From Chlorogloeopsis fritschii PCC 6912 (lineage in GTDB: Bacteria; Cyanobacteriota; Cyanobacteriia; Cyanobacteriales; Nostocaceae): 41,144 nt of DNA. The notes under the pieces are model-generated. The model had not been told where the DNA came from and searched no databases. It was given only the letters and a program-made list of their open reading frames with translations. Within the stretch, counting starts at the first letter, position 1. Every line of letters begins with the position of its first letter. The position numbers and the translations under genes are program-made. Of this stretch, positions 2,362 to 30,456 are shown piece by piece. Location: assembly GCF_000317285.1 (NCBI RefSeq), contig NZ_AJLN01000016.1, forward strand, positions 1 to 41,144, read 5' to 3'.

Positions 2362-2411
2362 ATTCTCCTCGGCATTGCTTTTAGCATTCTCAGCGTGGTT
2401 TCAAGTCATGA

Positions 2412-3572
2412 TTACGTAGAGATATCTATTGTTCCAAACCAGATACCTGCGATGCCGATAAGCAGGAGCCCAGCAAGACAAACGCCTGTCCACTGAAAAG
2501 CGCTCCAACCATAAGTTCCAACGACCGATCCCAAAGATGCGCCTAAAAATGTGGAGACCATGAACACGGTATTAAGTCGGCTGCGAGCATCGGGAAGCAA
2601 GCTATACACTTTGACTTGATTGGCAACTAAAGCACCTTGGCTACTCAAGTTGAGTAACATGCTACCCACGATTAAGCCCCACACCTGAGTTTCAAATTTC
2701 CAAAAGATTAGATACGCTGCAATTGAAGCTAAGAGCGCCATGCCGACCATTGATCGTAGGGTCTTTGCTGTTCCACGATCGGCAATTTGTCCTAATACCG
2801 GAGCTGCTAAAATTCCTCCAATTCCAACGAAGCCGAACAGACCAACCACATTACTGCCATACGAGTAAGGAGGGCGCGTTAACAAAAACGCCAATGTTGA
2901 CCAAAACACACTCAACGCACCAAACAGTATCGCTTGAATTAAACTGGCTTCGCGAAGGACGGGCTGCGATTTCACTAATCCCCATAGCGATTGCAATAAT
3001 TGTAAATAGGTCAGCTTTAGGGTGGGCTGGCTTTTCGGGAGCAATTGAGCAGACGCGATCGCTAATGCAGTCATCCCACCACCCGCGCTCCAATAAATAC
3101 TGCGCCAGCCATATTGTTCTCCGAGCCATCCACCTACTGGTCTTGCAAGCAAGCTGCCGACAAACAAGGCACTCATCAGATTACCTACGATTTTGCCTTG
3201 TGCATTCGGTGGAACTAACTCAGTGGCAAACGGCAGCAGAATCTGCGCGACAATCGTCGTTGCTCCAATTCCATAGCTTGCCACGACTAAACTGTTGAGG
3301 TTTGGAGAGAGTGCAGCTATAATCAAAACGCTTGCGGTGATGAGTAGCATCGTCACAATTAGTTGCCGACGCTCTAGTCGATCCCCTAACGGAACGAAAA
3401 GTAGCAGTCCAGACGCATACCCCAGTTGAGTGAGTGTGGGAATCCAGCCGACTTGATCGGCACTGGCATTGAAACTTTCAGCAATCGCCGCAAGTATCGG
3501 CTGATTATAGTAAAGATTGGCAACGGCAACGGCACACGTAATTGCCATTAACCAAAATATTTGAAGGGTCAT
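2412..3572 (-). CDS. MFS transporter, drug-efflux (DHA1/AraJ-like) type
   Basis: A 386-residue, strongly hydrophobic protein with about 12 predicted membrane helices. The first helix contains NLYYNQPILAAIA, a hallmark of this efflux subfamily. The loop between helices 2 and 3 holds GDRLERRQLI, the MFS motif A (GxxxDRxGRR-like), and RPVGGWLGEQYGWRSIYW matches the region around helices 5 and 6. It should export a small molecule using the proton gradient; the substrate is not predictable. It starts 11 bp after the stop of the TMEM175-like gene, with no visible Shine-Dalgarno, so translation is probably coupled. A broken aromatic monooxygenase lies immediately downstream. Confidence 0.85.
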   Translation of the reverse strand: MTLQIFWLMAITCAVAVANLYYNQPILAAIAESFNASADQVGWIPTLTQLGYASGLLLFVPLGDRLERRQLIVTMLLITASVLIIAALSPNLNSLVVASYGIGATTIVAQILLPFATELVPPNAQGKIVGNLMSALFVGSLLARPVGGWLGEQYGWRSIYWSAGGGMTALAIASAQLLPKSQPTLKLTYLQLLQSLWGLVKSQPVLREASLIQAILFGALSVFWSTLAFLLTRPPYSYGSNVVGLFGFVGIGGILAAPVLGQIADRGTAKTLRSMVGMALLASIAAYLIFWKFETQVWGLIVGSMLLNLSSQGALVANQVKVYSLLPDARSRLNTVFMVSTFLGASLGSVVGTYGWSAFQWTGVCLAGLLLIGIAGIWFGTIDIST

Positions 3573-3583
3573 ACGGATTCAAC

Positions 3584-4246
3584 TTAAGCGTCTTTTGCAA
3601 GTTCTCGATCAAAGCAAGCAAGCTGTTGATCGATCGCACCAGGTAATAGGTAAAATAAGGAGATAGCACCACACAAAAGAAGGCTGAGTGTCGCATTAAC
3701 CAACGCTAGGGTTGCAGCCAAAGAATATGAAATTGGATAGCCCATGCTCCAAATTGACGCTTGACGAACAATATGTCGTTGAATCAAGTTTTCGCTCTTG
3801 ATATACCTATTTAGAACGTAAAACCAAAGTGCATTGTAAACATATCCAGTAATCGCGAGTGAAAATCCATAAAAGCCAACAATGCTTGGATACTGGCTGT
3901 ACTGCCCCACAATCGCTGTCGAGCATGGAATAAATGCAATACACATTAACAGAAATAAATTCAGCGTTAACGTGATTCGATCCACCCGTTTGAGAAAATG
4001 AAATAGGGCATGGTGATTTAGCCAAATCACACCAATTACAATGAAACTCGTTGCGTAGGTCAGGACATGTGGCACAAGATGTAAGAGTTCTCGCCAAATC
4101 GCTGTCGGCGAAGCATGAGAAAGATCGGCAATCCGAATTTCAATCGCGAGTAGAGTCGCTGCGATCGCGAATACGCCATCACTGAATGCCTCGAAGCGGT
4201 TGAGACTCATCAGTGATGTTCGCTGTTGAATGAAAGACTGAGACAT
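3584..4246 (-). CDS. TMEM175-like (DUF1211) potassium channel family protein
   Basis: A 220-residue six-helix membrane protein. Residues 15-32 read NRFEAFSDGVFAIAATLL, containing the FSDG signature of the TMEM175/DUF1211 family, whose bacterial members form tetrameric K+-permeable channels. The motif VIWLNHHALFHFLKRVDR and further hydrophobic segments follow as in the family. The first ATG is supported by GAAGGAAA nine bases upstream, overlapping the end of katA; Met13 is an alternative. The gene lies 13 bp after the catalase stop and 11 bp before the MFS gene, so it is almost certainly co-transcribed with them. Ion transport during oxidative or envelope stress is a plausible but unproven role. 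Confidence 0.85.
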   Translation of the reverse strand: MSQSFIQQRTSLMSLNRFEAFSDGVFAIAATLLAIEIRIADLSHASPTAIWRELLHLVPHVLTYATSFIVIGVIWLNHHALFHFLKRVDRITLTLNLFLLMCIAFIPCSTAIVGQYSQYPSIVGFYGFSLAITGYVYNALWFYVLNRYIKSENLIQRHIVRQASIWSMGYPISYSLAATLALVNATLSLLLCGAISLFYLLPGAIDQQLACFDRELAKDA

Positions 4247-4259
4247 TAAGCCATTTCCT

Positions 4260-5720
4260 TCAAGTATTTATCTTTTCGTACATTCTCTGAGCAACTCCTT
4301 CAGCATAAGCCTGATCTGCCTTGGCAAAATGTGCAAGTTGTCTTTCGATGATAAATTGTGGTACACCCTTCATTGAGTCTGCAATGTTGCCGAATAGCCG
4401 CTGTTTTGAGTCTTCTGGCAACAATCGAAATAGATTACCTGCTTGAGTGTAATCGTCGTTGTCAACGCGGTGATCGTAACGATCTGCATCACCAAAAATC
4501 TTCAATGGCGGTTCCTGATACTGTGGATTTGCTACTGGCCCCCCAAAGCTATTTGGTTCATAGTTAACCGACCCACCATCATTACCGTCAAAGCGCATCA
4601 AGCCATCACGGTGGTAGGTATGCTTCCCAGTTACATGGGGACAGTTCACTGGCAAACTTTCATAGTTGACACCCAGCCGATAGCGATGGGCATCAGTGTA
4701 GGACAAGATGCGTGCCTGAAGCATTTTATCTGGACTCAAGGAAATTCCCGGCACGACGTTGGAGGGAGCAAAGGCAACTTGTTCAATTTCGGCAAAATAG
4801 TTTTCTGAATTGTGGTTGAGTTCAATAATTCCCACTTCAATAAGAGGATAATCTTGATGTGGCCAAACCTTAGTTAAATCGAAAGGATTGTAAGGTGTCT
4901 TTTGTGCATCCGCTTCTGGCATAATCTGTACAAAGAAACGCCATCTGGGATAATTACCCTGCTCAATCGCATAGAATAGGTCACGCTGAAAACTTTCGCG
5001 GTCTTCTCCAATAATCTTAGCGGCTTGCTCATTCGTGAGGTTGCGAATACCCTGTAAAGTTTTGAGATGAAATTTGACCCAAAAACGCTGATTGTTTGTG
5101 TTAATGAAACTAAAAGTATGGCTACCATAGCCATTCATATGACGATAGCTTGCAGGTAATCCGCGATCGCTAAACAGAATTGTTACTTGATGCAGACTTT
5201 CAGGTAAGAGTGACCAGAAGTCCCACATGGCAGTAGGATTACGTAGATTGGTTTTGGGGTTGCGCTTTTGGGTGCGGATGAAATCGCTGAATTTGAGCGG
5301 ATCGCGCACAAAGAAGACAGGAGTGTTGTTCCCGACTAAATCCCAGTTACCTTCTTCAGTGTAGAACTTGAGGGCAAAGCCACGCACATCTCGCTCTGCA
5401 TCAGCAGCACCACGTTCGCCTGCCACTGTGGAAAACCTAACGAGGACTTCGGTTTGTTTGCCAACTTGTGAAAAAAGTTTTGCCTTTGTATATTGTGTAA
5501 TGTCGTTTGTAACGGTAAAAATGCCATAAGCTCCAGAACCTTTAGCGTGAACCACCCGTTCTGGAATGCGCTCACGGTTGAAGTGGGCTATCTTCTCAAT
5601 TAAGTAAAAGTCTTGCATGAGCAGTGGACCTCGTGGTCCGGCTGTCAGCGAGTTTTGATTATCAGCAACTGGTATTCCTGCATCTGTAGTCAATATCTTT
5701 TTATTTTGATTCTCGTCCAT
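4260..5720 (-). CDS. katA: Monofunctional haem catalase, clade-3 type
   Basis: A 486-residue small-subunit catalase that converts H2O2 to water and oxygen in the cytoplasm. The distal histidine is His58 within [17 protein letters not shown], the distal asparagine is Asn131 or Asn132 ([14 protein letters not shown]), and the proximal haem tyrosine is Tyr341 in [14 protein letters not shown] with Arg337 before it. NADPH-region sequences and the C-terminal helices ([13 protein letters not shown]) are intact, and the length is normal for clade 3. The gene lies 64 bp downstream of the sensor kinase and 13 bp upstream of the DUF1211 gene, which suggests kinase-linked control. Haem catalases are patchy among cyanobacteria, so horizontal acquisition is possible. 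Confidence 0.97.
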
Positions 5721-5784: not shown

Positions 5785-7173
5785 TTAGGATTGATTGATG
5801 GGCAGACGAACCTTAAAGCTTGTGTTGCTTGGTTCCGAAAACAAGCGAATGTCTCCGTGATGCTGAAACACTACAATACGATAGGCAATCTCTAGACCTA
5901 ATCCCGTCCCTGCACCGACCTCCTTCGTTGTAAAAAACGGCTCAAAGATTCGGGACTGAATCTCCAGAGGAATGCCTGGTCCATTATCTGCTATCTCCAC
6001 CAGCACGTAGTCAATCTCTCGTGCAGTGCGCACCCAAATCTGCCCAGATTCGCCTAGCGCATCGATAGCGTTGTCAATTAGATTCGTCCAAACCTGGTTA
6101 AGTTCGGTGCCATATGCACTAATGCGCGGCAGATTCGGGTCGTACTCGCGTGTTACAACAATGCCGCTCTTCTTTCTTAGTTTATAACTGAGGATGGTTA
6201 GTGTACTTTCAAGACCCTCATGCACATCTACCTCTTGCAGTGGAGATTGATCCATGTAGGAATACGCCTTAACAGCCTTAACTAGCTCGGAGATGCGAGT
6301 AGTACCCTGTTCGAGCACATCCAGCAGACTTATTACACTCAGCGTTGCCTCCAGCCAGTTCAGCACATCGCTAAGTGCATTGACACTCACCTGCGATCTA
6401 ATCGATTCCAATTCAGTAGTGTTAATTCCAGCTGCAACTAGGGTAGAAACGAAGATCCATCCATCGGCAATATCGTGCTCTTCCAGCCAGTTCGCTAATT
6501 CGTCTTCCAGCTTAATTTGAGTCAATGGATCTAAACGGTTGGGAGTAGTGAAGTGCTTAATAGCATCACGCTTTAGCTTCGAGAGGCACTGGAGTTGAAC
6601 TGGCGTGAGGTGTTGCTCAATCGGCCTAAGTGCAAAGGCTTCTAATATCGCGATTGGAGTGCGCAACTGTTCCGCAACCCGATGTACTGCTGATGCTGGA
6701 TTGTTGATCTCATGAGCAAGACCAGCGGCCAGTGTACCCAAGGATATGAGTTTCTCGTGCTGTTGGGATAAGACCTGCAACTCTTGCATTCGCCTTGCCA
6801 TACAACCAAGTATAACTTTTCTAACTGACGGACAGATTACGAGCATCTGCCAAAAATCGTCTTTTTTTATACAATACACATGGCTTCTGCATACTGCTTG
6901 CCCACTTGCCAAGTGAACCGTACCCGTAAGTAGAGGAACTTCTCCTAAAAACATACCAGTATCGTATGTATTTAAAAAAAGCTCCTGGTTATAAATCTTT
7001 CTCGAAATCCGCACAGTTCCTTCGAGTACCACATAAAAGAGTTCGACTGGCTCTCCTTGATTAAACAGCATTTCTCCTGGATTCAGCCAGACCTGAATAC
7101 CCTGTGTTAGGTACTGAAGTTGCTCCTCTGTTAATTCTTGAAACAGGGGTATTTTACGTAATGCCTCAAGCAT
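5785..7173 (-). CDS. Sensor histidine kinase with N-terminal cyclic-nucleotide-binding-like domain
   Basis: A soluble 462-residue kinase. Residues 10-125 form a CRP-type cNMP fold (IPLFQELTEEQLQYL, GEMLFNQGEP, FLGEVPLLTG), but the arginine of the phosphate-binding cassette is not evident, so another ligand or redox input is possible. The H-box is GLAHEINNPASAV with His154. A long helical insert follows. The catalytic domain has the N-box NLIDNAIDAL (Asn368), the G1 box DNGPGIP (about 397-402), the F-box FEPFFTTKE and the G2 box GTGLGL. No membrane helices are seen. It is the first gene of the kinase-katA-DUF1211-MFS set. No ordinary response regulator is adjacent; the receiver/reductase fusion near 28.8-30.5 kb is a candidate partner. 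Confidence 0.93.
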   Translation of the reverse strand: MLEALRKIPLFQELTEEQLQYLTQGIQVWLNPGEMLFNQGEPVELFYVVLEGTVRISRKIYNQELFLNTYDTGMFLGEVPLLTGTVHLASGQAVCRSHVYCIKKDDFWQMLVICPSVRKVILGCMARRMQELQVLSQQHEKLISLGTLAAGLAHEINNPASAVHRVAEQLRTPIAILEAFALRPIEQHLTPVQLQCLSKLKRDAIKHFTTPNRLDPLTQIKLEDELANWLEEHDIADGWIFVSTLVAAGINTTELESIRSQVSVNALSDVLNWLEATLSVISLLDVLEQGTTRISELVKAVKAYSYMDQSPLQEVDVHEGLESTLTILSYKLRKKSGIVVTREYDPNLPRISAYGTELNQVWTNLIDNAIDALGESGQIWVRTAREIDYVLVEIADNGPGIPLEIQSRIFEPFFTTKEVGAGTGLGLEIAYRIVVFQHHGDIRLFSEPSNTSFKVRLPINQS

Positions 7174-8447: not shown

Positions 8448-9026
8448 ATGAGGCTTGATATGCAGAAGCGAAATAACTACTACAAAGATTTATCAGCTGA
8501 TTATTCTAGACCAGGACTTGTTCCTGACGATCTAGGGAAAAAACTCATCAGTGATGCTGAGAAGTATATTGCACTTCAAAAACCAACTTTACCTGAAATT
8601 ACTCCCGAATACACCTTACAACTCATAGAAAAAGAGAATAAGGAATGGTGGCCAACTCACTGTGAAGCTTTGCGGCAAGCTAGAGGTGATCTACTAGCAG
8701 GCGAGTACACCGATAATCTAGTTTACTTTTGTCAAGATGGGCCTTTTTACGGCAAAACAGCAGGGACAAAACGAGAGGCAAACTGGTGGGCAATTATTGC
8801 TCAACCAGAGGTAACTATGGTTTGGCCCATTGTGATGTTTCATGGTGAAACTGTCTATTTTGAATGGAAATGTCTTGACGACGAAACAAATGAAACTTTA
8901 GCTAAGGGAAATGTGACATATCTGCGTCGTGGGCATAGAGGTGGATGCTACCTCAAAACTGAGCAGCTGACCTTTTACAGGGATGTTTTTGCATCCGAGA
9001 GACTAATGAAGTTAATCACCACTTAG
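8448..9026 (+). CDS. NTF2-like / SnoaL-like domain protein
   Basis: A 192-residue soluble protein. Residues 55-190 have the NTF2/SnoaL pattern: a helix (EYTLQLIEKENKEWWPTHCEAL), then LLAGEYTDNLVYFCQDGPFYG, then strands VTMVWPIVMFHGETVYFEWK and the closing YLRRGHRGGCYLKTEQLTFY. Such folds act as small-molecule cyclases, isomerases, dehydratases or non-catalytic binders; the reaction is not predictable here. Two starts are possible: ATG 8448, or ATG 8460 with GAGG six bases upstream. It is followed after 12 bp by the CMD-domain gene and belongs to the same transcription unit. A decayed paralogue lies at 22402-22816. Confidence 0.8.
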   Translation: MRLDMQKRNNYYKDLSADYSRPGLVPDDLGKKLISDAEKYIALQKPTLPEITPEYTLQLIEKENKEWWPTHCEALRQARGDLLAGEYTDNLVYFCQDGPFYGKTAGTKREANWWAIIAQPEVTMVWPIVMFHGETVYFEWKCLDDETNETLAKGNVTYLRRGHRGGCYLKTEQLTFYRDVFASERLMKLITT

Positions 9027-9038
9027 AGGTTAATCGTG

Positions 9039-9782
9039 ATGAAAAAATCTAATGTTACAGAAGTATTCCAAGCTTTTAATGAGATAAATTCAGCTTTTGG
9101 CGGTCTGACAGAGTGGTATGCTCGTGGAGTCCAAGAAAGTTCCGGTCTGACTCTCAAACAGCGTGCTTTCATGTCCATTGCTTGCGATGTTTGCGAACAA
9201 ACACTATACGGCCCACTAGAATTCCACATCAAAATGGCCTTAGAAAATGGTGCGACTCGCCAGGACGTGAAAGAAGCAATCTTGCATATGGGAGTATACG
9301 GAGCCTACCCGAAGTGTTTTGAAACAATTGCCAGGCTGAAGGAAATTTACACAGAATTCGACAAAAAGGGTCTGTATCTCACTGGAGATAAGGTTTCGCA
9401 CCCCAAGCCAGAGCATAACTGGATATTAGATACCGATGTCAAAGATGGACTGATAGCATTTGAACCTCAGTATGGCGATCTCTCGTCACGTATGGCAGGT
9501 GAGGTTTGGGGACGTCCTGGTTTGACACCAATGGAACGGGTCTATATTTCTATTTCAGGCGATGTGTGCCAGCAGACATTAAGTGCAGATGGTCCTTTTC
9601 CTTTCCATGCCAACTTGTGCCTCCAAAATGGGATGACACAAAAGCAGGTACGCGAGATGATCATGTACCTAACGGTTGATGTTGGCTTCTTAAGAGTCTG
9701 GAATGCACTCGAAGCACTCAATGCACATTTTACCAGACTAGATTCTCAAATCGCAGAACCACTTGCAGGTTCACGTAAATAA
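9039..9782 (+). CDS. Carboxymuconolactone-decarboxylase-family protein with two CMD domains
   Basis: About 247 residues containing two CMD repeats. The first (about 20-100) has LTEWYARGVQESSGLTLKQRAF followed by ACDVCEQTLYGPLEFHIKMALENGATRQDVKEAI and a YGAYPK motif. The second (about 140-230) has RPGLTPMERVYISISGDVCQQ and FHANLCLQNGMTQKQVREM. This tandem arrangement resembles gamma-CMD-type proteins, some of which act on protocatechuate-pathway lactones, while others are AhpD-like peroxidase partners. Each repeat has one conserved Cys (ACDVC, GDVC) rather than a clear CxxC. An upstream GTG (9036) is possible, but AGAGG fits ATG 9039. It is tightly linked to the NTF2-like gene and 51 bp before the amidohydrolase. 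Confidence 0.85.
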   Translation: MKKSNVTEVFQAFNEINSAFGGLTEWYARGVQESSGLTLKQRAFMSIACDVCEQTLYGPLEFHIKMALENGATRQDVKEAILHMGVYGAYPKCFETIARLKEIYTEFDKKGLYLTGDKVSHPKPEHNWILDTDVKDGLIAFEPQYGDLSSRMAGEVWGRPGLTPMERVYISISGDVCQQTLSADGPFPFHANLCLQNGMTQKQVREMIMYLTVDVGFLRVWNALEALNAHFTRLDSQIAEPLAGSRK

Positions 9783-14526: not shown

Positions 14527-17500
14527 ATGAATACACAGAAACAAAGACGTAAGCGCGGTGTTATTCTCAGCCTTGAAGGGTGCCAGAAACTTCGGGATGC
14601 AAGAATTGAGTCAGAAAATAAGGAGAATTTTGGAGAAAGGTATACTCTTGAAGAGTTGAGTGAACGCACTGGATTAGATACAGGCACAATCACGAAAGTA
14701 CTGGCTCGCGAAGAAGGGGTTGACAAACGAACACTTGAGCGTTTTCTCGCAGCATTTAATTTAGAACTAGATAGAAGTTTCTATTCAAACATTACCCAAA
14801 GTCACTTAGATTGGGGAGAAGCGATTGATACCTCCGTTTTTTACGGACGTACAGAAGAACTTGCTACTTTAGAGCAATTGATCCTAAAGGATCGCTGCCG
14901 AGTAGTGTCAATCTTGGGGATGGGGGGAATTGGTAAATCAGCTCTATCAGTAAAGCTTACAGAAAAGATTAAAAATAATTTTGAGTACGTTATCTGGCGA
15001 TCGCTACGAGAAGCTCCGCCAATTCAAGCGATCCTGGCTAACCTGATCCAGTTTTTGTCTGATGAACAGGAAACAGAAGCTAACTTACCAGAAAGCGTAT
15101 GCGACAGAGTGTCGCGACTGATTGATTATTTGCGGCAGTATCGCTGTTTGCTGATACTAGATAATATGGAGTCGATTTTGCGTGGTGGTAGTCGAGCCGG
15201 ACTTTATCGAGAGGGATACGAATGGTATGGGGAGCTGCTCAGACGGGTGGGAGAAACATCTCACTCTAGTTGCTTGGTGTTGACAAGCCGGGAAAAACCG
15301 AAAGAAGTGGCATCACTAGAAGGAAAAACGCTATGGGTACGCTCATTCCCACTAAGTGGTATGAACTCGGTGGATGGGCAGGGAATCTTGAAAGTAAAGG
15401 GGCTATGTGGAGTAGAAGAGGAATGTACAGCAATAGTTGAGCGCTATGCAGGTAATCCATTAGCCCTAAAGATAGTTGCTACGGCTATTCTCGATGTCTT
15501 TAATGGTAATATAAGAGAATTTTTGCATCAGAATACGGCTGTTTTTGGCGATATTCACGATATTTTAGAGCAGCAATTTCAGCGTTTGCCAGATTTAGAA
15601 AAAGATATAATGTATTGGCTGGCAATTAATCGTGAGCCAGTTTCGCTATTAGAGTTGCAAGAAGATTTTGTATCACCAATTCCGTTAAAAAAAATACTAG
15701 AAGCACTGGAGTCTCTGGTAAGGCGATCGCTAATCGAGAAGGCTTCGCCTACGCTAGTTGAAAAAAGCGCAGCACACTTCACATTACAACCTGTAGTGAT
15801 GGAGTATGTGACTGACAGATTAGTAGATCAGGTGTGTTCAGAAATTTTCCTTCAGAAACTTGGTCTTTTCAAGTGTCATGCTCTGATGAAGGCGACAGCG
15901 AAAGACTATGTTAGGGAAACTCAAATTCGCCTCATCCTTAAACCAGTTATAGATGGGCTGCTTGTTCTCTTTGGGGGAAGCCCTAGAAGTGTTGAAAATC
16001 GGCTCACTCAAATTTTAGCCACCCTACGAGAGACATCACCGCTAGAAAAAAGTTATACCGCTGGAAATATTATTAATCTGCTTTGTCATTTGGGAACTGA
16101 TCTCAAGGGCTATAATTTTTCTAATTTGAGTGTTTGGCAGGCAGATTTGCGGAATGTGAAATTGCACGATGTAAATTTCCAAAACGCCAATCTAGCTAAG
16201 TCTGTTTTTGCTGATACCTTTGGTGGCGTTTTGTCAGTAATTTTTAGCCCTGATGGCAAACTTTTGGCTATGGGTGATACCAATGGTGAGATTCGCTTGT
16301 ACCAAGTTTCGGATGGGAAACAACTTCTGTCCTGTAAGGGGCATACCAACTGGGTTGTATCGCTTGCCTTTAGTCCCGATGGCAGAACTCTTGCTAGTAG
16401 TAGTGTTGACTGTATTGTGAAGTTGTGGGATGTCAGCACCGCTCAATGTCTGCAAATCTTGCAAGGACACGATGACGAGGTTTGGTCAGTTGCCTTTAGT
16501 CCAGATGGTAACACACTGGCGAGTGGCAGTGATGATAATACAATAAAGTTATGGAGTGTCTGCACAGGTCAATGTCTCACAACATTCCAAGGGCACACAA
16601 GTTGGGTATGCTCCGTTGTCTTCAGTAAGGATGGGCATATGCTGGCGAGTGGCAGTGATGACCACACAGTTAGGTTGTGGGATATTAACATCGGTGAATG
16701 CCTCAAAGTTTTCCAAGGACACAGTGATGGGATACGGTCAATTGCCGTCAGTCCTGATGGTAAAATGCTGGCGAGTGGTAGTGAAGACCAGACGATAAAG
16801 TTATGGGATGTCAACACTGGTGAATGCCTTAAAACGTTCCAAGGACATTTAAATGAAGTATACTCAGTCACATTTAGGTCACAAGGTGATATTCTAGCTA
16901 GTGGCAGTTTTGACCAGACGGTGAGACTATGGAGCGTTAGCACCGGTGAATGCCTCAAAACTTTCTACGGACATTCCAGTTGGGTATATTCGGTCGCCTT
17001 TAGTCCACAGGGCGAGTTAGTGGCTAGTGGCAGTTGCGATCAGATGGTACGACTGTGGGGTGTTCGTACTGGCGAATGCCTCAAAACGCTTCAGGGATAT
17101 ACTCATCAGGTACTCTCAGTTTCCTTCAGTCCAGATGGGCAGAAGCTAGCAAGTGGCAGTCACGATTCTTTGGTGAGGTTGTGGGATGTCGGTACAGGTC
17201 AATGCTTCAAAACGTTCCAAGGACATGGTGCTGCCATCCAGTCAGTTGCCTTTAGTCCAGATGGTAACACACTAGCGAGTGGCAGTGAAGATCGAACGGT
17301 GAGGTTGTGGGATGTTAATACAGGTCAAGTCTTGCAGACTTTCCAGGGACATGATGCTGCGATTCGGTCAGTTGCCTTTAGTCCAGATGGGCAGAAGCTA
17401 GCAAGTGGCAGTGAAGACCAAACAGTTAGGATATGGGATGTCAACACGGGTCAAACTTTAAGAACTTGCCAGGGACATATAGCTCAGGTCTGGTCAGTTG

Positions 17501-18084
17501 CCTTCAGTCCTCAAGGGATGATGCTAGCTAGCGGCGCGTTGGAGGAAACACTCAAGCTTTGGGATGTTAGTACTGGTGAGTGCCTCAAGACCCTAGAGGG
17601 GCATACGAATTGGGTTTGGTCAGTGGCTTTTGGTTCGGATGGTAAGCTGTTGGCAAGTACCAGTACAGATCGAACGTTAAGGTTATGGAGTGTCAGCACT
17701 GGTGAATGCCTTAACATTTTGCAGATAGATACGGGGTGGTTACTATCAGTAGCCTTTAGCCCAGACAGCCGAATACTAGCGAGTAGCTGTCAAGACCACA
17801 CAGTTAGGTTGTGGGATCTTAGCACTGGTGAATGCCTCAAAGTCTTGGAAGGACATACAGGGGGTTGGATCAGGTCAGTTGCTTTTTGTCCGGATAATCA
17901 AACTTTGGCAAGCAGCGGTGAGGATGAGACAATTAGACTGTGGAAGGTAACAACAGGTGAGTGCTTAAAAGTTCTGAAAGTGGAGAAACCATATAAGCGG
18001 ATGAACATTATGGGGGTTACAGGTTTAACTACAGCGATGGTTGCTACGCTGAAAGTTTTGGGGGCAGTTGCTGGTGAAAAATAG
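14527..18084 (+). CDS. STAND NTPase: HTH - NB-ARC - pentapeptide - 14 WD40 repeats
   Basis: An 1185-residue signal-sensing ATPase. Residues 1-85 form a helical HTH-like module (GLDTGTITKVLAREEGVDKRTLERF). The NB-ARC part starts at FYGRTEELATLE, with Walker A GMGGIGKS (131-138), Walker B LLILDN (208-213) and TSREKP sensor 1. Residues about 540-565 are pentapeptide-like (LKGYNFSNLSVWQADLRNV). Fourteen WD40 repeats follow, enough for two seven-bladed propellers, many with SVAFSPDGxxLASGSxDxTVRLWDV and GECLKTFQGH. Family members oligomerise on ligand binding and serve in regulation, programmed death or phage defence. No effector domain such as a protease or TIR is recognisable, so output is unclear. 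The repeats are near-identical at DNA level, a sign of recent amplification. Confidence 0.93.
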   Translation: MNTQKQRRKRGVILSLEGCQKLRDARIESENKENFGERYTLEELSERTGLDTGTITKVLAREEGVDKRTLERFLAAFNLELDRSFYSNITQSHLDWGEAIDTSVFYGRTEELATLEQLILKDRCRVVSILGMGGIGKSALSVKLTEKIKNNFEYVIWRSLREAPPIQAILANLIQFLSDEQETEANLPESVCDRVSRLIDYLRQYRCLLILDNMESILRGGSRAGLYREGYEWYGELLRRVGETSHSSCLVLTSREKPKEVASLEGKTLWVRSFPLSGMNSVDGQGILKVKGLCGVEEECTAIVERYAGNPLALKIVATAILDVFNGNIREFLHQNTAVFGDIHDILEQQFQRLPDLEKDIMYWLAINREPVSLLELQEDFVSPIPLKKILEALESLVRRSLIEKASPTLVEKSAAHFTLQPVVMEYVTDRLVDQVCSEIFLQKLGLFKCHALMKATAKDYVRETQIRLILKPVIDGLLVLFGGSPRSVENRLTQILATLRETSPLEKSYTAGNIINLLCHLGTDLKGYNFSNLSVWQADLRNVKLHDVNFQNANLAKSVFADTFGGVLSVIFSPDGKLLAMGDTNGEIRLYQVSDGKQLLSCKGHTNWVVSLAFSPDGRTLASSSVDCIVKLWDVSTAQCLQILQGHDDEVWSVAFSPDGNTLASGSDDNTIKLWSVCTGQCLTTFQGHTSWVCSVVFSKDGHMLASGSDDHTVRLWDINIGECLKVFQGHSDGIRSIAVSPDGKMLASGSEDQTIKLWDVNTGECLKTFQGHLNEVYSVTFRSQGDILASGSFDQTVRLWSVSTGECLKTFYGHSSWVYSVAFSPQGELVASGSCDQMVRLWGVRTGECLKTLQGYTHQVLSVSFSPDGQKLASGSHDSLVRLWDVGTGQCFKTFQGHGAAIQSVAFSPDGNTLASGSEDRTVRLWDVNTGQVLQTFQGHDAAIRSVAFSPDGQKLASGSEDQTVRIWDVNTGQTLRTCQGHIAQVWSVAFSPQGMMLASGALEETLKLWDVSTGECLKTLEGHTNWVWSVAFGSDGKLLASTSTDRTLRLWSVSTGECLNILQIDTGWLLSVAFSPDSRILASSCQDHTVRLWDLSTGECLKVLEGHTGGWIRSVAFCPDNQTLASSGEDETIRLWKVTTGECLKVLKVEKPYKRMNIMGVTGLTTAMVATLKVLGAVAGEK
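15741..15764. repeat. Short palindromic repeat inserted in frame in the STAND gene
   Basis: GAAGGCTTCGCCTACGCTAG (about 15739-15758) is of the interspersed GAAGGCTTCGCC type common in Nostocales genomes. It adds about eight residues (ASPTLVEK) between two similar IEK/VEK words within the helical part after NB-ARC, without breaking the frame. Confidence 0.5.
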
Positions 18085-22890: not shown

Positions 22891-23520
22891 ATGGTAACTA
22901 AAATGTCCAAGCCTAAACAAAAAATAGGTGTACTCATTGAAGCTCACTTTGACGAAACTGAATATCGAGGGTTCAACGACTTCTTTCCTAAAAATGGATA
23001 CCAGATAGACTACATATCTCATCTTTGGGGTTATGACCAACTGACTTTTAAAGGCAATGATTTTACTGAAGAGGTTACAGTCTGCACAGAAGTAGAAGAT
23101 GTTGAGCCTACCGATTATGACGGCATTATTCTCATTGGTGGCTATGCTATGGATCGTCTTCGCTATGAAGCCAATCCAAAGCCAGGTCAACCCAACCAGT
23201 CTTCAGCCGTCAAGTTTCTCCGAGCAGCGGTGAGAGCTATGGATACCAATCACTTAAAAATTGGAACAATTTGTCACAGCCTTTGGCTATTCTGTGCTGC
23301 ACCAGAACTCCTGAGAGGCCGCAAGGTCACCTGTGCTCATAACCTGATTTACGACGTCCAAAATGCGGGAGGAATCGTCCAATTTGAGGGTGATGAAACC
23401 AAGAAAATACACATCGACGGTAATCTGATCGCAGCAAAACATCCTGACGTAACCCATGAATTCATGGGTGTCTTTTTAGAGGAAATTAAAAAGCAACAAA
23501 TGCAGAAAGTTAGTGCGTAA
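22891..23520 (+). CDS. DJ-1/PfpI-family protein (type-1 glutamine-amidotransferase-like fold)
   Basis: 209 residues with the DJ-1/PfpI layout: a first strand with Glu17 (IGVLIEAHFDETE), the central IILIGGYAMDRLR, and the nucleophile elbow GTICHSLWLFC with Cys128-His129. The sequence then gives RGRKVTCAHNLIYDVQNAGG and DGNLIAAKHPDVTHEFM, matching the family's ending (DGNLITGRxPxD). Relatives are deglycases, glyoxalase-III-like enzymes, isonitrile hydratases or stress proteases; which applies is open. AAAGGAG eight bases before ATG 22891 supports the start. The extended N-terminal loop (EYRGFNDFFPKNGYQIDYIS) is characteristic of the larger stress-related branch. Confidence 0.88.
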   Translation: MVTKMSKPKQKIGVLIEAHFDETEYRGFNDFFPKNGYQIDYISHLWGYDQLTFKGNDFTEEVTVCTEVEDVEPTDYDGIILIGGYAMDRLRYEANPKPGQPNQSSAVKFLRAAVRAMDTNHLKIGTICHSLWLFCAAPELLRGRKVTCAHNLIYDVQNAGGIVQFEGDETKKIHIDGNLIAAKHPDVTHEFMGVFLEEIKKQQMQKVSA

Positions 23521-24231: not shown

Positions 24232-26349
24232 ATGATTGCAACAACTAAATATCAACTTGAGCCAGTAACAGCTAAGTACCAAGTAGAACGAGGAAGCCAA
24301 CATCCTTTAGGTGCAACGCCATACAAAGACGGGGTAAATTTCTCAATCTTTTCAGAACATGCCACATCTGTGGAACTGTTGTTGTTCGATAAGCATGATG
24401 ACGCGGAACCAATTCAGATTATCCAATTGAACCCAAAAATAAATAAAACCTTTCATTTCTGGCATATCTTTGTTAAAGGGTTGACACCAGGCACTTGCTA
24501 TGGATACCGGGTTGACGGCCCTCAGAATTTACACGGCGCAGGATACCGCTTCAACAAGAACAAGGTACTAATCGATCCCTACTCCAAGGGAAACTGCAAT
24601 GCTCTTTGGAACCGCATAGATGCTTTAGGAACAAAAGACAACCTAGCTACCTCAATGCGTAGTGTAGTGATTGACACCTCAGATTATGACTGGGAAGGCG
24701 ATCGCCCCCTCAACCGACCAATGAGTGACACGATCATTTATGAGGTACATATTGGCGGGTTTACTAGGTCTCCCTCCTCAGGCTGTAAAAACTGCGGAAC
24801 CTTCTCTGGAATTATCGAGAAGATTCCTTACTTGAAAGAATTGGGAATAACAGCTGTTGAACTCCTGCCAGTATTTGACTTTGATGAAAAGGAAATAGTC
24901 CGAGAAGTTAACGGCAACCGACTGAAAGACTACTGGGGATACAACCCACACAGCTACTTTGCTCCTGAAGGTTCATATTGTACTGCTTCTGATGAAGGAA
25001 GCCATATCAGGGAGTTTCGAGATATGGTTAAGGCTCTCCATAAGGCAGACATTGAAGTCATCCTAGATGTGGTCTATAACCATACTAGTGAAGGTAATCA
25101 TATGGGTCCGACCATCAACTTCAAAGGCTTTGAAAATAGCACCTACTATCACCTCGTGCCCTGGGATAAGCAGTATTATATGGACTATACCGGGTGTGGA
25201 AATACCTTTAACTGCAATCACCCAATTGTGGAAAAGTTGATTGTAGAATCTCTGGAATTTTGGGTAAAAGAGATGCATGTTGATGGTTTCCGGTTTGATG
25301 AAGGGTCTATTCTCGCGCGTGGTCAGGACGGAGTACCTATGGCTCATCCGCCAGTAGTGTGGCACATTGAAATATCTGATACCCTAGCCGAAACCAAAAT
25401 TATTGCTGAGGCTTGGGATGCTGCCGGATTGTATCAAATTGGCTACTTTCCTGGATATCGTTGGGCAGAATGGAACGGACACTATCGGGATGATATCCGG
25501 CGCTTTGTCAAGGGAGATCCAGGGCTAGTGGGGGCAGTTGCTTCACGCATAGCCGGAAGTGCCGATCTCTATCAAGCAACTGGTCACCTACCAATTAACA
25601 GCATTAATTTCATTACTTGCCATGATGGGTTCACCCTCAACGATCTGGTTTCATACAACTACAAACATAATGAAGCCAATGGTGAAAATAATCAGGATGG
25701 CATTAATGATAATTTGAGCTGGAATTGTGGAGTTGAAGGAGAGACTGACGATCCAGGAATTGATGCTTTACGTCGGCGACAAATTAAGAATTTCGCAGCC
25801 ATTCTCTTCCTTTCCCAGGGCGTACCGATGTTTGTGGCTGGTGATGAAGTCAGACGTACCCAAAAGGGCAACAACAACGCCTATTGCCAAGATAACGAAA
25901 TTAGTTGGTTTAACTGGAATCTTGTGGAGAAGAACTCAGATATATTCAGGTTCTTCAAGCTGATGATAGATTTCCGCAAGTGCTATTGTCATAGTGCCTT
26001 ACGCCGCAGCCGTTTCTTCAGTGGCGAAGTTAACGAGCGTGGTTTGGCGGACATTTCTTGGCATGGTAGCAAGTTGTTCAGTCCAGGTTGGTGCGATCCT
26101 GATGCCAGAGTTCTCGCATATACTATGGGCGGCTTTGAAGGGGAAGCAGATATTCACGTCATGCTCAATATGTATTGGGAAGCTCTCGACTTTGAAATTC
26201 CCTCAATTACAGGTAGGGAATGGTACAAAATTGTAGACACTGCTGAACCTTCCCCTATGGATATTATGGAACAGGGGAAAGAGACTATAGTTTCAGGCAA
26301 TGTCTGTACTGTTCAGGGTCGTAGCGTTGTCATTTTAATTTCCAAATAA
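24232..26349 (+). CDS. glgX: Glycogen debranching enzyme (isoamylase-type, GH13)
   Basis: A 705-residue isoamylase/GlgX-type enzyme that hydrolyses alpha-1,6 branches of glycogen or limit dextrin in the cytoplasm. The N-terminal CBM48 domain (HPLGATPYKDGVNFSIFSEH) is followed by the GH13 barrel. Conserved regions are DVVYNHTSEG (about 279-288), DGFRFDEGSI with nucleophile Asp356, IIAEAWDAAG with acid/base Glu393, and ITCHDGFTLND with His464-Asp465. The length matches the family. AAGGAAGG precedes ATG 24232. It is the first gene of a same-strand group with the AGE-STAS protein 38 bp downstream. No truncation or missing residue was seen. Confidence 0.95.
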   Translation: MIATTKYQLEPVTAKYQVERGSQHPLGATPYKDGVNFSIFSEHATSVELLLFDKHDDAEPIQIIQLNPKINKTFHFWHIFVKGLTPGTCYGYRVDGPQNLHGAGYRFNKNKVLIDPYSKGNCNALWNRIDALGTKDNLATSMRSVVIDTSDYDWEGDRPLNRPMSDTIIYEVHIGGFTRSPSSGCKNCGTFSGIIEKIPYLKELGITAVELLPVFDFDEKEIVREVNGNRLKDYWGYNPHSYFAPEGSYCTASDEGSHIREFRDMVKALHKADIEVILDVVYNHTSEGNHMGPTINFKGFENSTYYHLVPWDKQYYMDYTGCGNTFNCNHPIVEKLIVESLEFWVKEMHVDGFRFDEGSILARGQDGVPMAHPPVVWHIEISDTLAETKIIAEAWDAAGLYQIGYFPGYRWAEWNGHYRDDIRRFVKGDPGLVGAVASRIAGSADLYQATGHLPINSINFITCHDGFTLNDLVSYNYKHNEANGENNQDGINDNLSWNCGVEGETDDPGIDALRRRQIKNFAAILFLSQGVPMFVAGDEVRRTQKGNNNAYCQDNEISWFNWNLVEKNSDIFRFFKLMIDFRKCYCHSALRRSRFFSGEVNERGLADISWHGSKLFSPGWCDPDARVLAYTMGGFEGEADIHVMLNMYWEALDFEIPSITGREWYKIVDTAEPSPMDIMEQGKETIVSGNVCTVQGRSVVILISK

Positions 26350-26387
26350 TTTCCAGGTCATCAATTTTCAATTTTGGAGAAAATTCA

Positions 26388-28562
26388 ATGAATAACATAG
26401 ATTTTACGTTTTCAGACCTGATCGCTGGGTATGTTACTGATTTTGACACGAGTAAAGGAGAGCATGGTACTTTCACCCTCAAGACCTCAGACGGAAGGAA
26501 CTTTGAAGTAGCATTGACCTCAAACACCTATGCTGAGTTGGTGCGCAATTTGGGAGAGCCTTACTACGATTGCACTGGTCAGATATGGTCAAGAATTGCT
26601 CCAAATCAGTATATTTTCGTATATGGCATTTTCTATCTTGAGGGAGATCAGTATAAGTTTGAAGCCAAGCGTATAGTCTTTCTGGGTCGGACAGAACGCG
26701 AGTATCTTTTTGAAAAGCAAGACTGGTGGATCAAGCAAATACAAAATCTTGCCAATTTTTACCTGAAAGCACAGTTTGAGGATGGTGAAATTGATTATCG
26801 AAAATATCGCACTGGTATAGGCTTGGTTGGTTCAAAGGAAAAGAGCAATCGTCAGGAAACTGACACCATTTCGCGCCTAGTTTACGGTTTTGCCACAGCC
26901 TATATGATGACTGGGGAAGAGCGTTATCTAGAGGCTGCCGAAAAAGGAACCGAATACCTACGTCGACATATGCGTTTTCTCGACGAGGGTGAAGGTATTT
27001 GCTATTGGTATCATGCAGTTGACGTGAAGCCAGATGGAAGTGAGCAAAAAATATTTTCCTCAGAATTTGGGGATGATTATGACGCTATTCCAGCTTATGA
27101 GCAGATATATGCGTTGGTTGGTCCTACCCAAACTTACCGGGTTACAGGCGATCCGCACATTCTGAAGGACATAGAGTTGACCGTCAATCTGTTTGAGTAC
27201 TATTTCCTGGACAAATCGGAAAGAGGAGGATTATTTTCACACATCGATCCGATTAGTCTCAGCCCTTACTCAGAGACTTTGGGTCATAACCGCGCTAAAA
27301 AGAACTGGAACTCAGTAGGCGATCATGCCCCAGCTTACTTGATTAATTTATGGCTGGCGACTGGCGAGGACAAATACGCCGATTTCCTTGAGTACACCTT
27401 TGACACAATTGAAAAGCGTTTTCCGGATTATGAGTATAGTCCGTTCGTTCAAGAACGTTTTTATGAAGATTGGAGCCACGACACGACTTGGGGGTGGCAG
27501 CAGAATCGAGCCGTTGTCGGACACAACCTCAAAATTGCCTGGAACCTGATGCGGATGAACCACCTGAAACCAAAAGAAAAATATGTAGCCCTGGCTGAAA
27601 AGATTGCAGAAATCATGCCAGCAGTTGGCAGCGATCGTCAGCGTGGAGGGTGGTATGACGTCGTAGAGCGTACCCTAAAACCAGGGGAAGGGATATACCG
27701 CTTTGTATGGCATGACCGAAAAGCTTGGTGGCAGCAGGAACAAGCCATTTTAGCCTATCTAATTCTTACTGGTTCACTTGGTAAACCTGAGTATCAACGG
27801 TTGGCACGTGAATCAGCAGCTTTCTATAACGCTTGGTTCCTCGACTACGAAGCTGGCGGTGTCTACTTCAATGTTTTGGCAAATGGACTTCCCTATCTGC
27901 TGGGAACTGAGCGAGGCAAGGGCAGCCACTCGATGAGTGGTTATCACTCCTTCGAGCTGGCTTACTTGGCTTGTGTCTATACAAACCTGCTGATTACTAA
28001 ACAGCCGATGGATTTGTACTTCAAGCCAAAGCCTGGTGCCTTTAAGGATAATATTCTGCGGGTTCAGCCAGATATTCTACCACCTGGCAGCGTGCGTATT
28101 GCTGATGTATGGATCAATGGGCAATCGCATTTCGATTTTGATGCCAACAACCTCAAAATCAAACTGCCATCCTCTACCGATGAACTAAAAGTTAGAGTCA
28201 GAATTCTTCCCACTGAGGTATTTTTCAACGCAACTCTATTAGATGTAACTGAAGGTATCGCCAAGATTTCCTTAAGTGGGTTAATGGATGCAGCTGCTGT
28301 ACCACTTTTCGAGGATGAATTAAAAAAAGCAACCAGCCACTCAGTCAAACGCATTGTCTTGATGCTAGAAAATCTGAAATGCATATCTAGCGCTGGGCTG
28401 CGATCGCTCATTTTCAACAAGCAAAAGTTGGGTGCTGATGTTGAATTCTATATAGTTGGTGCGGCTGAGCATGTGAAGAATTACCTTCAGATGAGTTCAT
28501 TTTGTGAGGGTGTGACTGTGTTGGATAGGTATGAAACTGTCAAGATGGCTAGTGTTAGGTGA
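26388..28562 (+). CDS. AGE-like (alpha/alpha)6-barrel protein fused to a C-terminal STAS domain
   Basis: A 724-residue multidomain protein. Residues 1-100 are a beta-rich region of unknown type (GTFTLKTSDGRNFEVALTSN). Residues about 110-570 resemble N-acylglucosamine 2-epimerase/cellobiose-epimerase barrels: helices with ETDTISRLVYGFATAYMMTG, HAPAYLINLWLATGEDKYAD, VVGHNLKIAWNLMRM, RGGWYDVVE, WWQQEQAILAYLILTG and SYHSFELAYL-like motifs, including candidate catalytic histidines. Residues about 615-724 form a STAS/anti-sigma-factor-antagonist domain (GIAKISLSGLMDAAAVPLFE; CISSAGLRSL) with the phosphorylatable serine position at Ser667. TGGAGAA precedes ATG 26388. Placement 38 bp after glgX suggests a sugar-active or sugar-sensing protein whose activity or partner binding is switched by phosphorylation. 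Confidence 0.85.
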   Translation: MNNIDFTFSDLIAGYVTDFDTSKGEHGTFTLKTSDGRNFEVALTSNTYAELVRNLGEPYYDCTGQIWSRIAPNQYIFVYGIFYLEGDQYKFEAKRIVFLGRTEREYLFEKQDWWIKQIQNLANFYLKAQFEDGEIDYRKYRTGIGLVGSKEKSNRQETDTISRLVYGFATAYMMTGEERYLEAAEKGTEYLRRHMRFLDEGEGICYWYHAVDVKPDGSEQKIFSSEFGDDYDAIPAYEQIYALVGPTQTYRVTGDPHILKDIELTVNLFEYYFLDKSERGGLFSHIDPISLSPYSETLGHNRAKKNWNSVGDHAPAYLINLWLATGEDKYADFLEYTFDTIEKRFPDYEYSPFVQERFYEDWSHDTTWGWQQNRAVVGHNLKIAWNLMRMNHLKPKEKYVALAEKIAEIMPAVGSDRQRGGWYDVVERTLKPGEGIYRFVWHDRKAWWQQEQAILAYLILTGSLGKPEYQRLARESAAFYNAWFLDYEAGGVYFNVLANGLPYLLGTERGKGSHSMSGYHSFELAYLACVYTNLLITKQPMDLYFKPKPGAFKDNILRVQPDILPPGSVRIADVWINGQSHFDFDANNLKIKLPSSTDELKVRVRILPTEVFFNATLLDVTEGIAKISLSGLMDAAAVPLFEDELKKATSHSVKRIVLMLENLKCISSAGLRSLIFNKQKLGADVEFYIVGAAEHVKNYLQMSSFCEGVTVLDRYETVKMASVR

Positions 28563-28794
28563 TAGTTAACAGCCTCTTTAGTTTGCAACTGAGCTTTACT
28601 TGTACCTTAATAAACTTAAGAAAGCCAATAAGTAGGGGATTCAAATACTTATTAAAGATTCAAGTTAGAAGTAGAGGTTTTAAACCCAACTAGTAGTCAG
28701 CCAAAGCAACTTTAAGGGGCTAAATAACGAACTGCTAAAACGAGCCAGCGCCTTGTTTTTTCAATGTTGTAGCTTGTGAATTAATGAGGAACTT

Positions 28795-30456
28795 ATGGCT
28801 AAGCCTGTATTAATTACAATAGACGACGACCCCCAAGTCCTATGGGCTATCGAACGCGATTTACGGCATAAATACGGTAGCGACTTCCGGATATTGCGAG
28901 CAGATTCTGGTGCGACGGCTTTGGAGGCACTCAAACAGTTGAAACTGCGCAATGAGCCAGTGGCACTATTGTTGGCAGACCAGCGGATGCCACAGATGAC
29001 TGGTGTGGAGTTTCTTGAAAAGGCAATGGAAATCTTTCCACAGGCCAAACGCGCCTTGCTTACGGCGTATGCAGATACCGATGATGCTATTCGTGCCATC
29101 AATAAGGCCAAGATTGATTACTATCTTCTGAAGCCGTGGAGCCCTCCAGAAGAGCGTTTGTACCCCGTGCTTAACGATTTGCTAGAGGTTTGGCAGACAT
29201 CGTTTCTCCCATATTTTGAAGGCGTTCGCGTGATTGGTGATCGCTGGTCGCCCAAATCCCATCAAGTCAAAGATTTTTTAGCACGTAATCATATTCCTTA
29301 CCAGTGGCTGGACGTTGAATCAGATGAGGCGAACCGTCTGGTTACCTACGCCACCAGTTCTGATGTCCCACAACTACCACTACTGCTCTTCCCCAATGGC
29401 TCAAATCTGATAGCTCCGACAAATATTGAAATTGCCGAGAAAATAGGGCTGAAAATGCGCCCGACAATGCCGTTTTACGACTTGATTATCGTGGGTGCTG
29501 GTCCGGGCGGTCTAGCGGCAGCTGTTTATGGGGCATCCGAGGGGCTGGATACTGTAATAATTGAAAGAGAGGCCCCAGGAGGGCAAGCGGGGACAAGTTC
29601 CCGGATTGAGAATTATCTCGGTTTTCCGGTTGGACTAACTGGGGGAGATTTAGCCAGACGTGCTGTTGCACAAGCTCACAAGTTTGGAGCAGAGATTCTT
29701 ACGCCGCAAGAAGTAACTAGCGTTCGTACAGAGGGTCAGTATCGAATTGTAACTCTAGCAGATGGATCGGAACTGAGCAGTCATACGCTGATGATTGCAA
29801 CAGGCGTATCGTATCGCAAACTCGATGTGCCTGGTATTGACAGGTTGACAGGGGCGGGTGTGTACTATGGAGCTGCAATCACCGAAGCACTTTCCTACCA
29901 AGACGAAGACGTTTTTATTGTCGGGGCGGGTAATTCAGCTGGACAGGCTGCGATGTACCTCTCTAAATACGCCCGGCGTGTGACTCTGCTCGTACGAGGT
30001 GACTCACTAACGAAAAGTATGTCTAAGTATCTGATCGATCAGATCGAATTAACTGACAATATAACAGTAAAATTGTTGACTCAGGTTGCTGAAGTATTTG
30101 GCAAAGACAAGCTTGAGGCGATAACTCTTGCAAACATAGAAACTAGTGAGGTTGAAACTGTCCCTACCAACGCCCTTTTTACCTTTATTGGTGCGATGCC
30201 ACGTACTCACTGGTTACAAGATGTTGTAGAGCGCGATAAATATGGATTCATCCTGACTGGGCCTGACACTATGCAGAATGGGACACTTCCAAAAGGATGG
30301 ACACTAGAGCGCAATCCGTTTCTTCTCGAAACTAGTGTGCCGGGTATTTTCGCGGTAGGTGACGTGCGCCATAAGTCTGTGAAACGAGTTGCCTCAGCGG
30401 TGGGTGAGGGAGCGATCGCTGTTCAATTCATTCACCAATATCTCGCATCTTTATAG
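28795..30456 (+). CDS. Response regulator - glutaredoxin-like - thioredoxin-reductase-like fusion
   Basis: 553 residues. The receiver domain (1-125) has acidic pocket Asp10-Asp12, phospho-acceptor Asp62 in LLLADQRMPQMTG, Thr90 and Lys113. Residues 140-220 have a glutaredoxin-like pattern (GVRVIGDRWSPKSHQVKDFL, ARNHIPYQWLDVE), but the CPxC position reads SPKS, so no redox cysteine. Residues 226-553 are a flavoprotein: FAD motif GAGPGG (234-239), NADPH motif GAGNSAG (377-383) and FAVGD near the end. At the thioredoxin-reductase CxxC position there is GVYYGAAITEA, so the dithiol is absent. The protein likely passes electrons directly or senses NADPH/redox state rather than reducing thioredoxin. 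GAGGAA precedes ATG 28795. No kinase is adjacent. Confidence 0.93.
   Translation: MAKPVLITIDDDPQVLWAIERDLRHKYGSDFRILRADSGATALEALKQLKLRNEPVALLLADQRMPQMTGVEFLEKAMEIFPQAKRALLTAYADTDDAIRAINKAKIDYYLLKPWSPPEERLYPVLNDLLEVWQTSFLPYFEGVRVIGDRWSPKSHQVKDFLARNHIPYQWLDVESDEANRLVTYATSSDVPQLPLLLFPNGSNLIAPTNIEIAEKIGLKMRPTMPFYDLIIVGAGPGGLAAAVYGASEGLDTVIIEREAPGGQAGTSSRIENYLGFPVGLTGGDLARRAVAQAHKFGAEILTPQEVTSVRTEGQYRIVTLADGSELSSHTLMIATGVSYRKLDVPGIDRLTGAGVYYGAAITEALSYQDEDVFIVGAGNSAGQAAMYLSKYARRVTLLVRGDSLTKSMSKYLIDQIELTDNITVKLLTQVAEVFGKDKLEAITLANIETSEVETVPTNALFTFIGAMPRTHWLQDVVERDKYGFILTGPDTMQNGTLPKGWTLERNPFLLETSVPGIFAVGDVRHKSVKRVASAVGEGAIAVQFIHQYLASL

Follow-up and report, generated by a model that had tools for sequence, protein, structure and literature searches.

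In Synechocystis, the icfG cluster joins inorganic carbon, glucose and SigC control. In strain PCC 6803 its members include an N-acylglucosamine 2-epimerase-like (AGE) protein (Slr1855), a STAS domain protein (Slr1856), the glycogen debranching enzyme GlgX2 (Slr1857), a second STAS protein (Slr1859), the phosphatase IcfG (Slr1860) and the kinase Slr1861. Excerpts of two papers describe the operon, slr1852-1862 (PMC8670252, PMC12329169), and the first of them names the AGE (Slr1855), STAS, GlgX and IcfG genes. PMC12329169 reports Slr1861 as an anti-SigC factor and as a kinase for Ssr1600, Slr1856 and Slr1859, and gives two-hybrid data suggesting an interaction of PmgA with Slr1859. In the dark, both Slr1856 and Slr1859 become more phosphorylated (PMC7466104). 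A 41,144 nt stretch of the Chlorogloeopsis fritschii PCC 6912 genome (the window) holds what looks like a rearranged relative of this carbon-control cluster, in which glgX, an AGE-STAS fusion gene and a gene for a receiver-flavoprotein lie in a row.

The best explanation of the row, to which we assign a probability of about 0.45, is that it represents one form of a glycogen-mobilisation locus, in which the serine-kinase switch has been replaced by a histidine-aspartate (His-Asp) pair. Cyanobacteria conserve GlgX and AGE as neighbouring genes, and so, with AGE in the form of AGE-STAS, do loci assigned by record title to nine other phyla. In the fused lineage an Slr1859-type STAS forms part of the AGE protein, and most genomes lack the Slr1861-type kinase. 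The cyanobacterial clade to which the window belongs has a receiver-flavoprotein and a histidine kinase in addition. The features concerned are as follows.

24232-26349 (+): glgX, glycogen debranching enzyme, CBM48 and GH13 isoamylase type, 705 residues (TIGR02100)
26388-28562 (+): AGE-STAS fusion, 724 residues (PF07221 and PF01740)
28242-28520 (+): STAS domain of the fusion, placed by domain match and alignment; codon for Ser668 at 28389-28391
28795-30456 (+): receiver/glutaredoxin-like/thioredoxin reductase-like flavoprotein (receiver-flavoprotein), 553 residues, no cysteine, FAD and NAD(P)H motifs retained
5785-7173 (-): histidine kinase with a cyclic nucleotide (cNMP)-binding fold and a HATPase domain; likely the displaced cognate of the receiver-flavoprotein, from its domains, its tree and the related genome G292
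22891-23520 (+): DJ-1/PfpI protein, 5' of glgX; a member of the icfG-type neighbourhood, found upstream of AGE in most of the unfused loci mapped

The row itself was recognised in the initial annotation, and its strands, lengths and spacings were all confirmed: 38 bp separate glgX from AGE-STAS, and 232 bp separate AGE-STAS from the receiver-flavoprotein gene. GlgX passes the curated cut-off of TIGR02100 (715.9 bits against 640.9), and among the 15 loci where GlgX lies immediately upstream, 7 have a spacing of 36-38 bp. The AGE-STAS query finds one match in the source genome. The window shares with the icfG cluster the presence of DJ-1, AGE and GlgX genes together, an AGE of the same family and a STAS of the Slr1859 type. 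It differs in that the STAS is fused to AGE, that the order is glgX-AGE rather than AGE-STAS-glgX, and that no free STAS, IcfG-type phosphatase or Slr1861-type kinase lies alongside; the receiver-flavoprotein and, displaced, the histidine kinase are present instead. The icfG arrangement was seen directly in Synechocystis salina (locus L274), where the best AGE segment is 61% identical. The unfused loci described below share the gene order of slr1852-1862 and are the icfG cluster, so that the parent arrangement is known. The initial annotation, which knew of no described pathway with this trio, was therefore half right, as GlgX and AGE together with a partner-switch cluster constitute the described icfG operon.

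AGE-STAS was sought in 291 genomes of the order, of which 77 match at 1e-20. Sorted by match extent, neighbourhood and tree, these consist of 19 with the fused clade only (window included), 4 with both forms, 46 with the unfused form only, 3 with fragments (G066, G159, G254) and 5 with a distant paralogue only (G135, G169, G174, G186, G238). The loci mapped comprise 75 AGE loci, the window included, and six stretches of the source genome itself; 71 of the 75, with an AGE of more than 550 residues, entered the tree. The typical unfused order is DJ-1, AGE (about 606 residues), STAS, GlgX, STAS, followed by an RsbW-type kinase and a SpoIIE phosphatase in either order, with exceptions; the typical fused order is GlgX, AGE-STAS (about 710-750 residues). 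The receiver-flavoprotein follows AGE-STAS in ten order loci (the window, L043-L048, L090, L091 and L139), and a cNMP-domain histidine kinase comes next in nine of them, all except the window. In L091, three successive cNMP-domain histidine kinase frames come after the receiver-flavoprotein. The window's clade has 11 rows in the order tree, nine with the receiver-flavoprotein directly downstream; the others are L142, where the contig stops after AGE-STAS, and L101. The latter (genome G134, one of the 19) lies in the fused clade with an AGE of 627 residues without STAS, a likely STAS loss. In L139 (G197, another of the 19) and L140 (G117), other open frames split the AGE gene, apparently through insertion.

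A wider survey, with one genome per species, kept the best 80 of the 569 relatives present in the stretches it covered. Because the query carried STAS, fused loci were favoured, and the fused and unfused numbers are not frequencies. By profile, 56 of the 80 are fused and 24 unfused, the latter all cyanobacterial. The fused loci belong to Cyanobacteriota (25), to nine other phyla (28) or to no assigned phylum (3, one of which, L233, is titled Phormidesmis); phyla were taken from record titles, and single labels may be wrong since many records are metagenome bins. GlgX lies within 5 kb in 50 of the 56 fused loci (ten phyla) and in 23 of the 24 unfused loci. The receiver-flavoprotein is found within 3.5 kb downstream in 21 of the 56 fused loci, all cyanobacterial, and in 0/24 unfused loci; a histidine kinase accompanies it in 20 of the 21. 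An RsbW-type gene is nearby in 0/56 fused and 17/24 unfused loci, some of the other seven being near a contig end. In the window's family, 67 of 192 genomes match AGE-STAS. Among ten family stretches the receiver-flavoprotein is next in seven loci from other genera, two of which (L326, L330) have other frames between it and the kinase, and in the same-genus copy, represented by two stretches; L325 is of the other fused kind. The order, family and named genome sets overlap in some organisms. The three genes thus form a conserved neighbourhood, as the survey proposed by the initial annotation was meant to establish; the lack of one, on which its idea would have fallen, was not what was found.

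The kinase of the serine switch shows the reverse distribution. A model of the Slr1861-type kinase (A2), built from eight unfused-locus kinases and applied at a threshold of 1e-15, matches 70 of the 291 order genomes: 0/19 of those with the fusion only (window included), 4/4 with both forms and 44/46 with the unfused form. The test (p 2e-15) used 44/45 unfused genomes, the 46th, G267 (67% complete, no match), having been added by hand, and kinship of the genomes means that such p values overstate independence. Of the eight order genomes set aside as having fragments or the paralogue only, G159 has the kinase. Among family genomes, sorted by match extent alone, the counts are 3/21 fused only, 4/4 both (one of the four, G358, is 38% contaminated) and 36/37 unfused. 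The kinase also occurs in genomes without AGE, such as G201, G327 and G431. In the source genome there is no match at 1e-15, the best reaching 36.5 bits compared with at least 127.4 in genomes with the unfused form. The best Slr1856-type STAS score among the STAS loci fetched from the source genome is 43.6 bits, against at least 154.3 in the members listed. Free Slr1856- or Slr1859-type STAS genes were not found in the window, nor was a SpoIIE-type phosphatase at the locus; its five matches in the genome are all on other contigs. The genome does have further RsbW-, SpoIIE- and STAS-type genes. The link between glycogen and a partner switch proposed in the initial annotation therefore stands for the relatives, where GlgX and AGE have as neighbours an RsbW-type kinase, a SpoIIE phosphatase and a pair of free STAS genes, but is not borne out for the window, with no Slr1861-type kinase, no close Slr1856-type match among the STAS loci fetched and a phosphosite that varies within its clade. 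In three unfused loci (L032, L033, L039) an alpha-amylase gene follows the kinase, that of L032 carrying a starch-binding CBM20, a further glycogen link.

Both parts of the fusion exceed the Pfam cut-offs (PF07221, GlcNAc 2-epimerase, 1.7e-15; PF01740, STAS, 3.5e-10). The protein consists of an N-terminal beta domain (about residues 1-100), the AGE helical barrel (about 110-540), a beta region and the STAS domain (619-711 by Pfam). The STAS profile matches SpoIIAA structures at 8e-4, while the score to TIGR00377 (ant_ant_sig, anti-sigma factor antagonist), 46.5 bits, is under the cut-off of 53.45. All 18 fused domains in a 102-member STAS tree group as a single clade (starred, 99), which a long branch sets apart from the Slr1856 type and leaves on the side of the Slr1859 type; with other phyla added, 57 fused domains again form a single clade (starred, 99). 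Mean identity of the window's STAS is 38% to 41 Slr1859-type domains and 22% to 40 Slr1856-type domains. The fused STAS is grouped with the Slr1859 type. The predicted structure of AGE-STAS (pLDDT 82.6, pTM 0.85) has a glucose-2-epimerase mutant, 8h1n, as its top solved Foldseek match (E 6.9e-15, 18% identity), with cellobiose 2-epimerases and mannose isomerase also among the best solved matches; the AGE part of the model has the (alpha/alpha) barrel fold. It shares this predicted fold and the Arg163 and His379 positions with the AGE superfamily (glucose-2-epimerase Runsl_4512, cellobiose 2-epimerase, mannose isomerase), to which it adds the N-terminal beta domain and the C-terminal STAS. Exact-word searches of the open-access literature returned no paper pairing 'N-acylglucosamine 2-epimerase' with 'STAS domain' or 'glgX', and nothing on the role of the AGE protein of the icfG cluster.

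The third protein matches Response_reg and Pyr_redox_2 above the Pfam cut-offs, with sub-threshold scores for glutaredoxin (17.5 bits, cut-off 22.9) and thioredoxin-disulfide reductase (TIGR01292, 244.2 bits, cut-off 343.45). The residues expected of a receiver, D11, D12, D62, T90 and K113 (acidic pair, phosphoacceptor Asp, Thr and Lys), are invariant in 17 sequences. The thiol sites are not retained. The window protein has zero cysteines; its thioredoxin reductase CxxC site reads GAAI (GAA-x in the aligned relatives, with FAD and NAD(P)H motifs kept), and the glutaredoxin CPxC/CxxS site reads WSPKS. Nine relatives encoded next to AGE-STAS likewise lack a CxxC at either redox site, and the only CxxC anywhere in the protein, among 30 homologues, is in L139, away from those sites. 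Position 368 is Cys in at least 90% of 17 sequences and Tyr in the window. As the protein has no cysteine, thiol reductase activity of a known kind is unexpected. Its FAD and NAD(P)H domains are shared with thioredoxin reductase and alkyl hydroperoxide reductase F, and its closest solved relatives are named thioredoxin reductase, but it differs from both by lacking a CxxC, by a cysteine-free glutaredoxin-like domain and by the N-terminal receiver. Thioredoxin reductase-like ferredoxin-NADP reductases, which are not known to carry the dithiol, were also matched, and the window protein resembles them in this respect. The predicted structure is of low confidence (pLDDT 65.3), too poor for a fold search; only in it does the strand-helix order of the glutaredoxin-like part fit a thioredoxin fold. 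The NADPH-sensing receiver put forward in the initial annotation thus loses its thiol-based readout, while an input through the receiver remains plausible given its invariant key residues and a related kinase 21.6 kb away. Homologues matching at 1e-100 occur in 53 of the 291 order genomes, and the tree of the family did not establish that the copies beside AGE-STAS are monophyletic.

This kinase, which the initial annotation did not include, lies on the opposite strand. In separate trees the receiver-flavoprotein and the kinase of the window are each sister (starred, 99) to those of L046, L090, L047 and L048, loci where a histidine kinase comes right after the receiver-flavoprotein, and the same-genus genome G292 has the kinase in the same displaced position. 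The ratios of nonsynonymous to synonymous substitution (dN/dS) against G292 are 0.08 to 0.24 for glgX (0.11), AGE-STAS, the receiver-flavoprotein and the kinase, with few changes, indicating purifying selection. From the sister relationships, the position in G292 and this selection, the kinase of the window's cluster appears to have been relocated rather than lost.

How such a module might work can be outlined. The AGE domain would be an enzyme or sensor of the GlgX product, binding or 2-epimerising a sugar or malto-oligosaccharide freed by GlgX. The STAS could serve as a docking domain that holds AGE to a partner (GlgX, AGE-STAS itself or a regulator), with no Slr1861-type phosphorylation cycle. 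The histidine kinase would phosphorylate the receiver, and the NAD(P)H/FAD protein that carries it, with no dithiol, may then supply the module with a redox or ligand signal, taking over from the serine switch. The initial interpretation is supported in part; its serine-phosphorylation and thiol-redox steps are the weakest.

Several observations weigh against this explanation. Ser668, at the phosphosite, is a serine in the window, and four other RsbW-type proteins exceed 50 bits in the source genome, which could leave the site to another kinase. In the family, three genomes (G374, G386, G441) carry both the fusion and an Slr1861-type kinase. The 232 bp gap 5' of the third gene leaves room for a promoter of its own. 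Within the window's clade, L046 and L090 lack GlgX beside AGE-STAS, L283 lacks the receiver-flavoprotein, and L101 has lost STAS and has different genes downstream. Of 18 full-length receiver-flavoprotein copies away from AGE (not counting L168, which has no receiver, and L171, which is probably the detached end of a fused locus), 12 adjoin one or two cNMP-domain kinases, so that the pair is not dedicated to the glycogen module; the source genome has a second such copy (L156). The genomes counted are also related to one another, and the counts are not independent.

Among the other explanations, the one that survives best, although still unlikely, is that the STAS persists as a vestige or has a purely structural role, that AGE is an ordinary sugar epimerase acting next to GlgX, and that the receiver-flavoprotein gene shares their transcription unit without being functionally related. 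The median STAS/AGE divergence ratio is 2.17 in the window's clade compared with 1.59 and 1.53 for free STAS (pairs not independent), and this, the STAS loss in L101 and the occurrence elsewhere of the receiver-flavoprotein/kinase pair alone would all fit. Yet STAS is retained on AGE in 56 of the best 80 loci, across ten phyla, a comparison of sister species shows constraint on the STAS part itself (dN/dS 0.21, few changes), and the receiver-flavoprotein is directly downstream in 9 of the clade's 11 order-tree rows, the other two being L142, which ends at a contig end, and L101.

Somewhat less probable is a STAS that still works as an anti-sigma antagonist: AGE would sense the sugar, another RsbW/PmgA-like kinase would bind the STAS or phosphorylate it on Ser668 in trans, and a sigma factor would be freed upon glycogen mobilisation. 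The initial annotation had placed the phosphosite at Ser667, but the alignment puts the partner-switch position at Ser668, which, with the numbering presumed for SpoIIAA, we take to be equivalent to its Ser58. A serine occupies this position in half of the window's clade (16 of 32 members, the window being one of them), the genome has, besides the four RsbW-type HATPases, four nearly full-length SpoIIE domains, and PmgA is suggested by two-hybrid data to interact with Slr1859 (PMC12329169). However, the remaining clade members have Thr (10) or Ala (6), and Ser is found in only 9 of 17 other cyanobacterial fused proteins and 9 of 30 remaining fused proteins (18/47 together), against 40/40 free Slr1856-type and 41/41 free Slr1859-type domains, a few organisms being present in two rows of these counts; the genome's top Slr1861-type match, as given above, is also far below those of unfused-form genomes. 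A conserved serine, seen in 10 of 10 members of the window's clade when 18 fused sequences were compared, failed as an idea at 79 sequences.

That the AGE part is a carbohydrate-binding regulator of GlgX and no enzyme is improbable: the family motifs GHxxE and WWPHNE (WWPxxE) read GHNLK, with Lys382 for Glu, and WWQQEQ when aligned with a family structure, and these residues are invariant or almost so among 34 sequences, but Arg163, His379 and His520 are invariant in 34/34, as an active site would be, and with about 18% identity the alignment itself is uncertain. Active-site positions of the family are matched by Arg163 and His379, and these two and the Lys382 position presumably correspond to its catalytic residues; His520 was not seen in the tool alignment with any solved enzyme.

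The direction of change, fusion or fission, was pursued with several trees, and neither was retained. In the AGE tree, unfused rows fall inside a starred clade with fused ones; constraining the fused rows to a single group gave a better-scoring tree, which the test did not reject (p-AU 0.739). In a smaller rooted AGE tree neither direction is starred (73 and 72), and topology tests on STAS gave p 0.38 and 0.432. The outgroup in the trees was a second AGE paralogue family (L176-L184, about 660-690 residues, 41-46% identical), which adjoins a DJ-1-like gene, has no GlgX in the fetched stretches and showed no STAS in the six members tested.

Further 5' in the window lies a pair of genes whose relatives occur 5' of DJ-1/AGE in many icfG-type loci, and which we take to correspond to slr1852/slr1853.

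8448-9782 (+): 192-residue protein (no Pfam match) and carboxymuconolactone decarboxylase (PF02627), identified from relatives of the two genes

Downstream of the displaced kinase, on the same strand (687-5720, -), are genes for a thioredoxin reductase-like protein with CLIC (CxxC), a major facilitator superfamily (MFS) transporter, a TMEM175-like protein and a catalase. A 1185-residue WD40-repeat-rich protein with a weak FxSxx-TPR family match is encoded at 14527-18084 and has a homologue in the stretch around the fused locus L046. In another cyanobacterial fused clade, a 351-residue gene product, homologous between L049 and L050, follows AGE-STAS, and genes for 314-348 residues occupy this place in L092, L135 and L136. 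Scans of the window for promoters and terminators were at chance level, those for tRNA and Rfam families gave nothing above threshold, and comparison with PHROGs gave nothing useful.

A broader possibility, which we regard as doubtful, is that the whole signalling input to GlgX and AGE-STAS was exchanged in evolution, from serine-kinase partner switching in the unfused cyanobacterial loci to a His-Asp pair whose last component, in the window's clade, is an NAD(P)H flavoprotein lacking the dithiol; AGE would then be a sugar sensor that drives the attached STAS. The fused form ties STAS physically to AGE and, in ten phyla, AGE-STAS to GlgX, which yields the testable claim that AGE is a partner of the STAS and that the two work together with the debranching enzyme. 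A further suggestion from the fused form is that the dispensable part of the switch is the kinase. The locus offers a natural experiment in which one kind of signalling would have been replaced by another.

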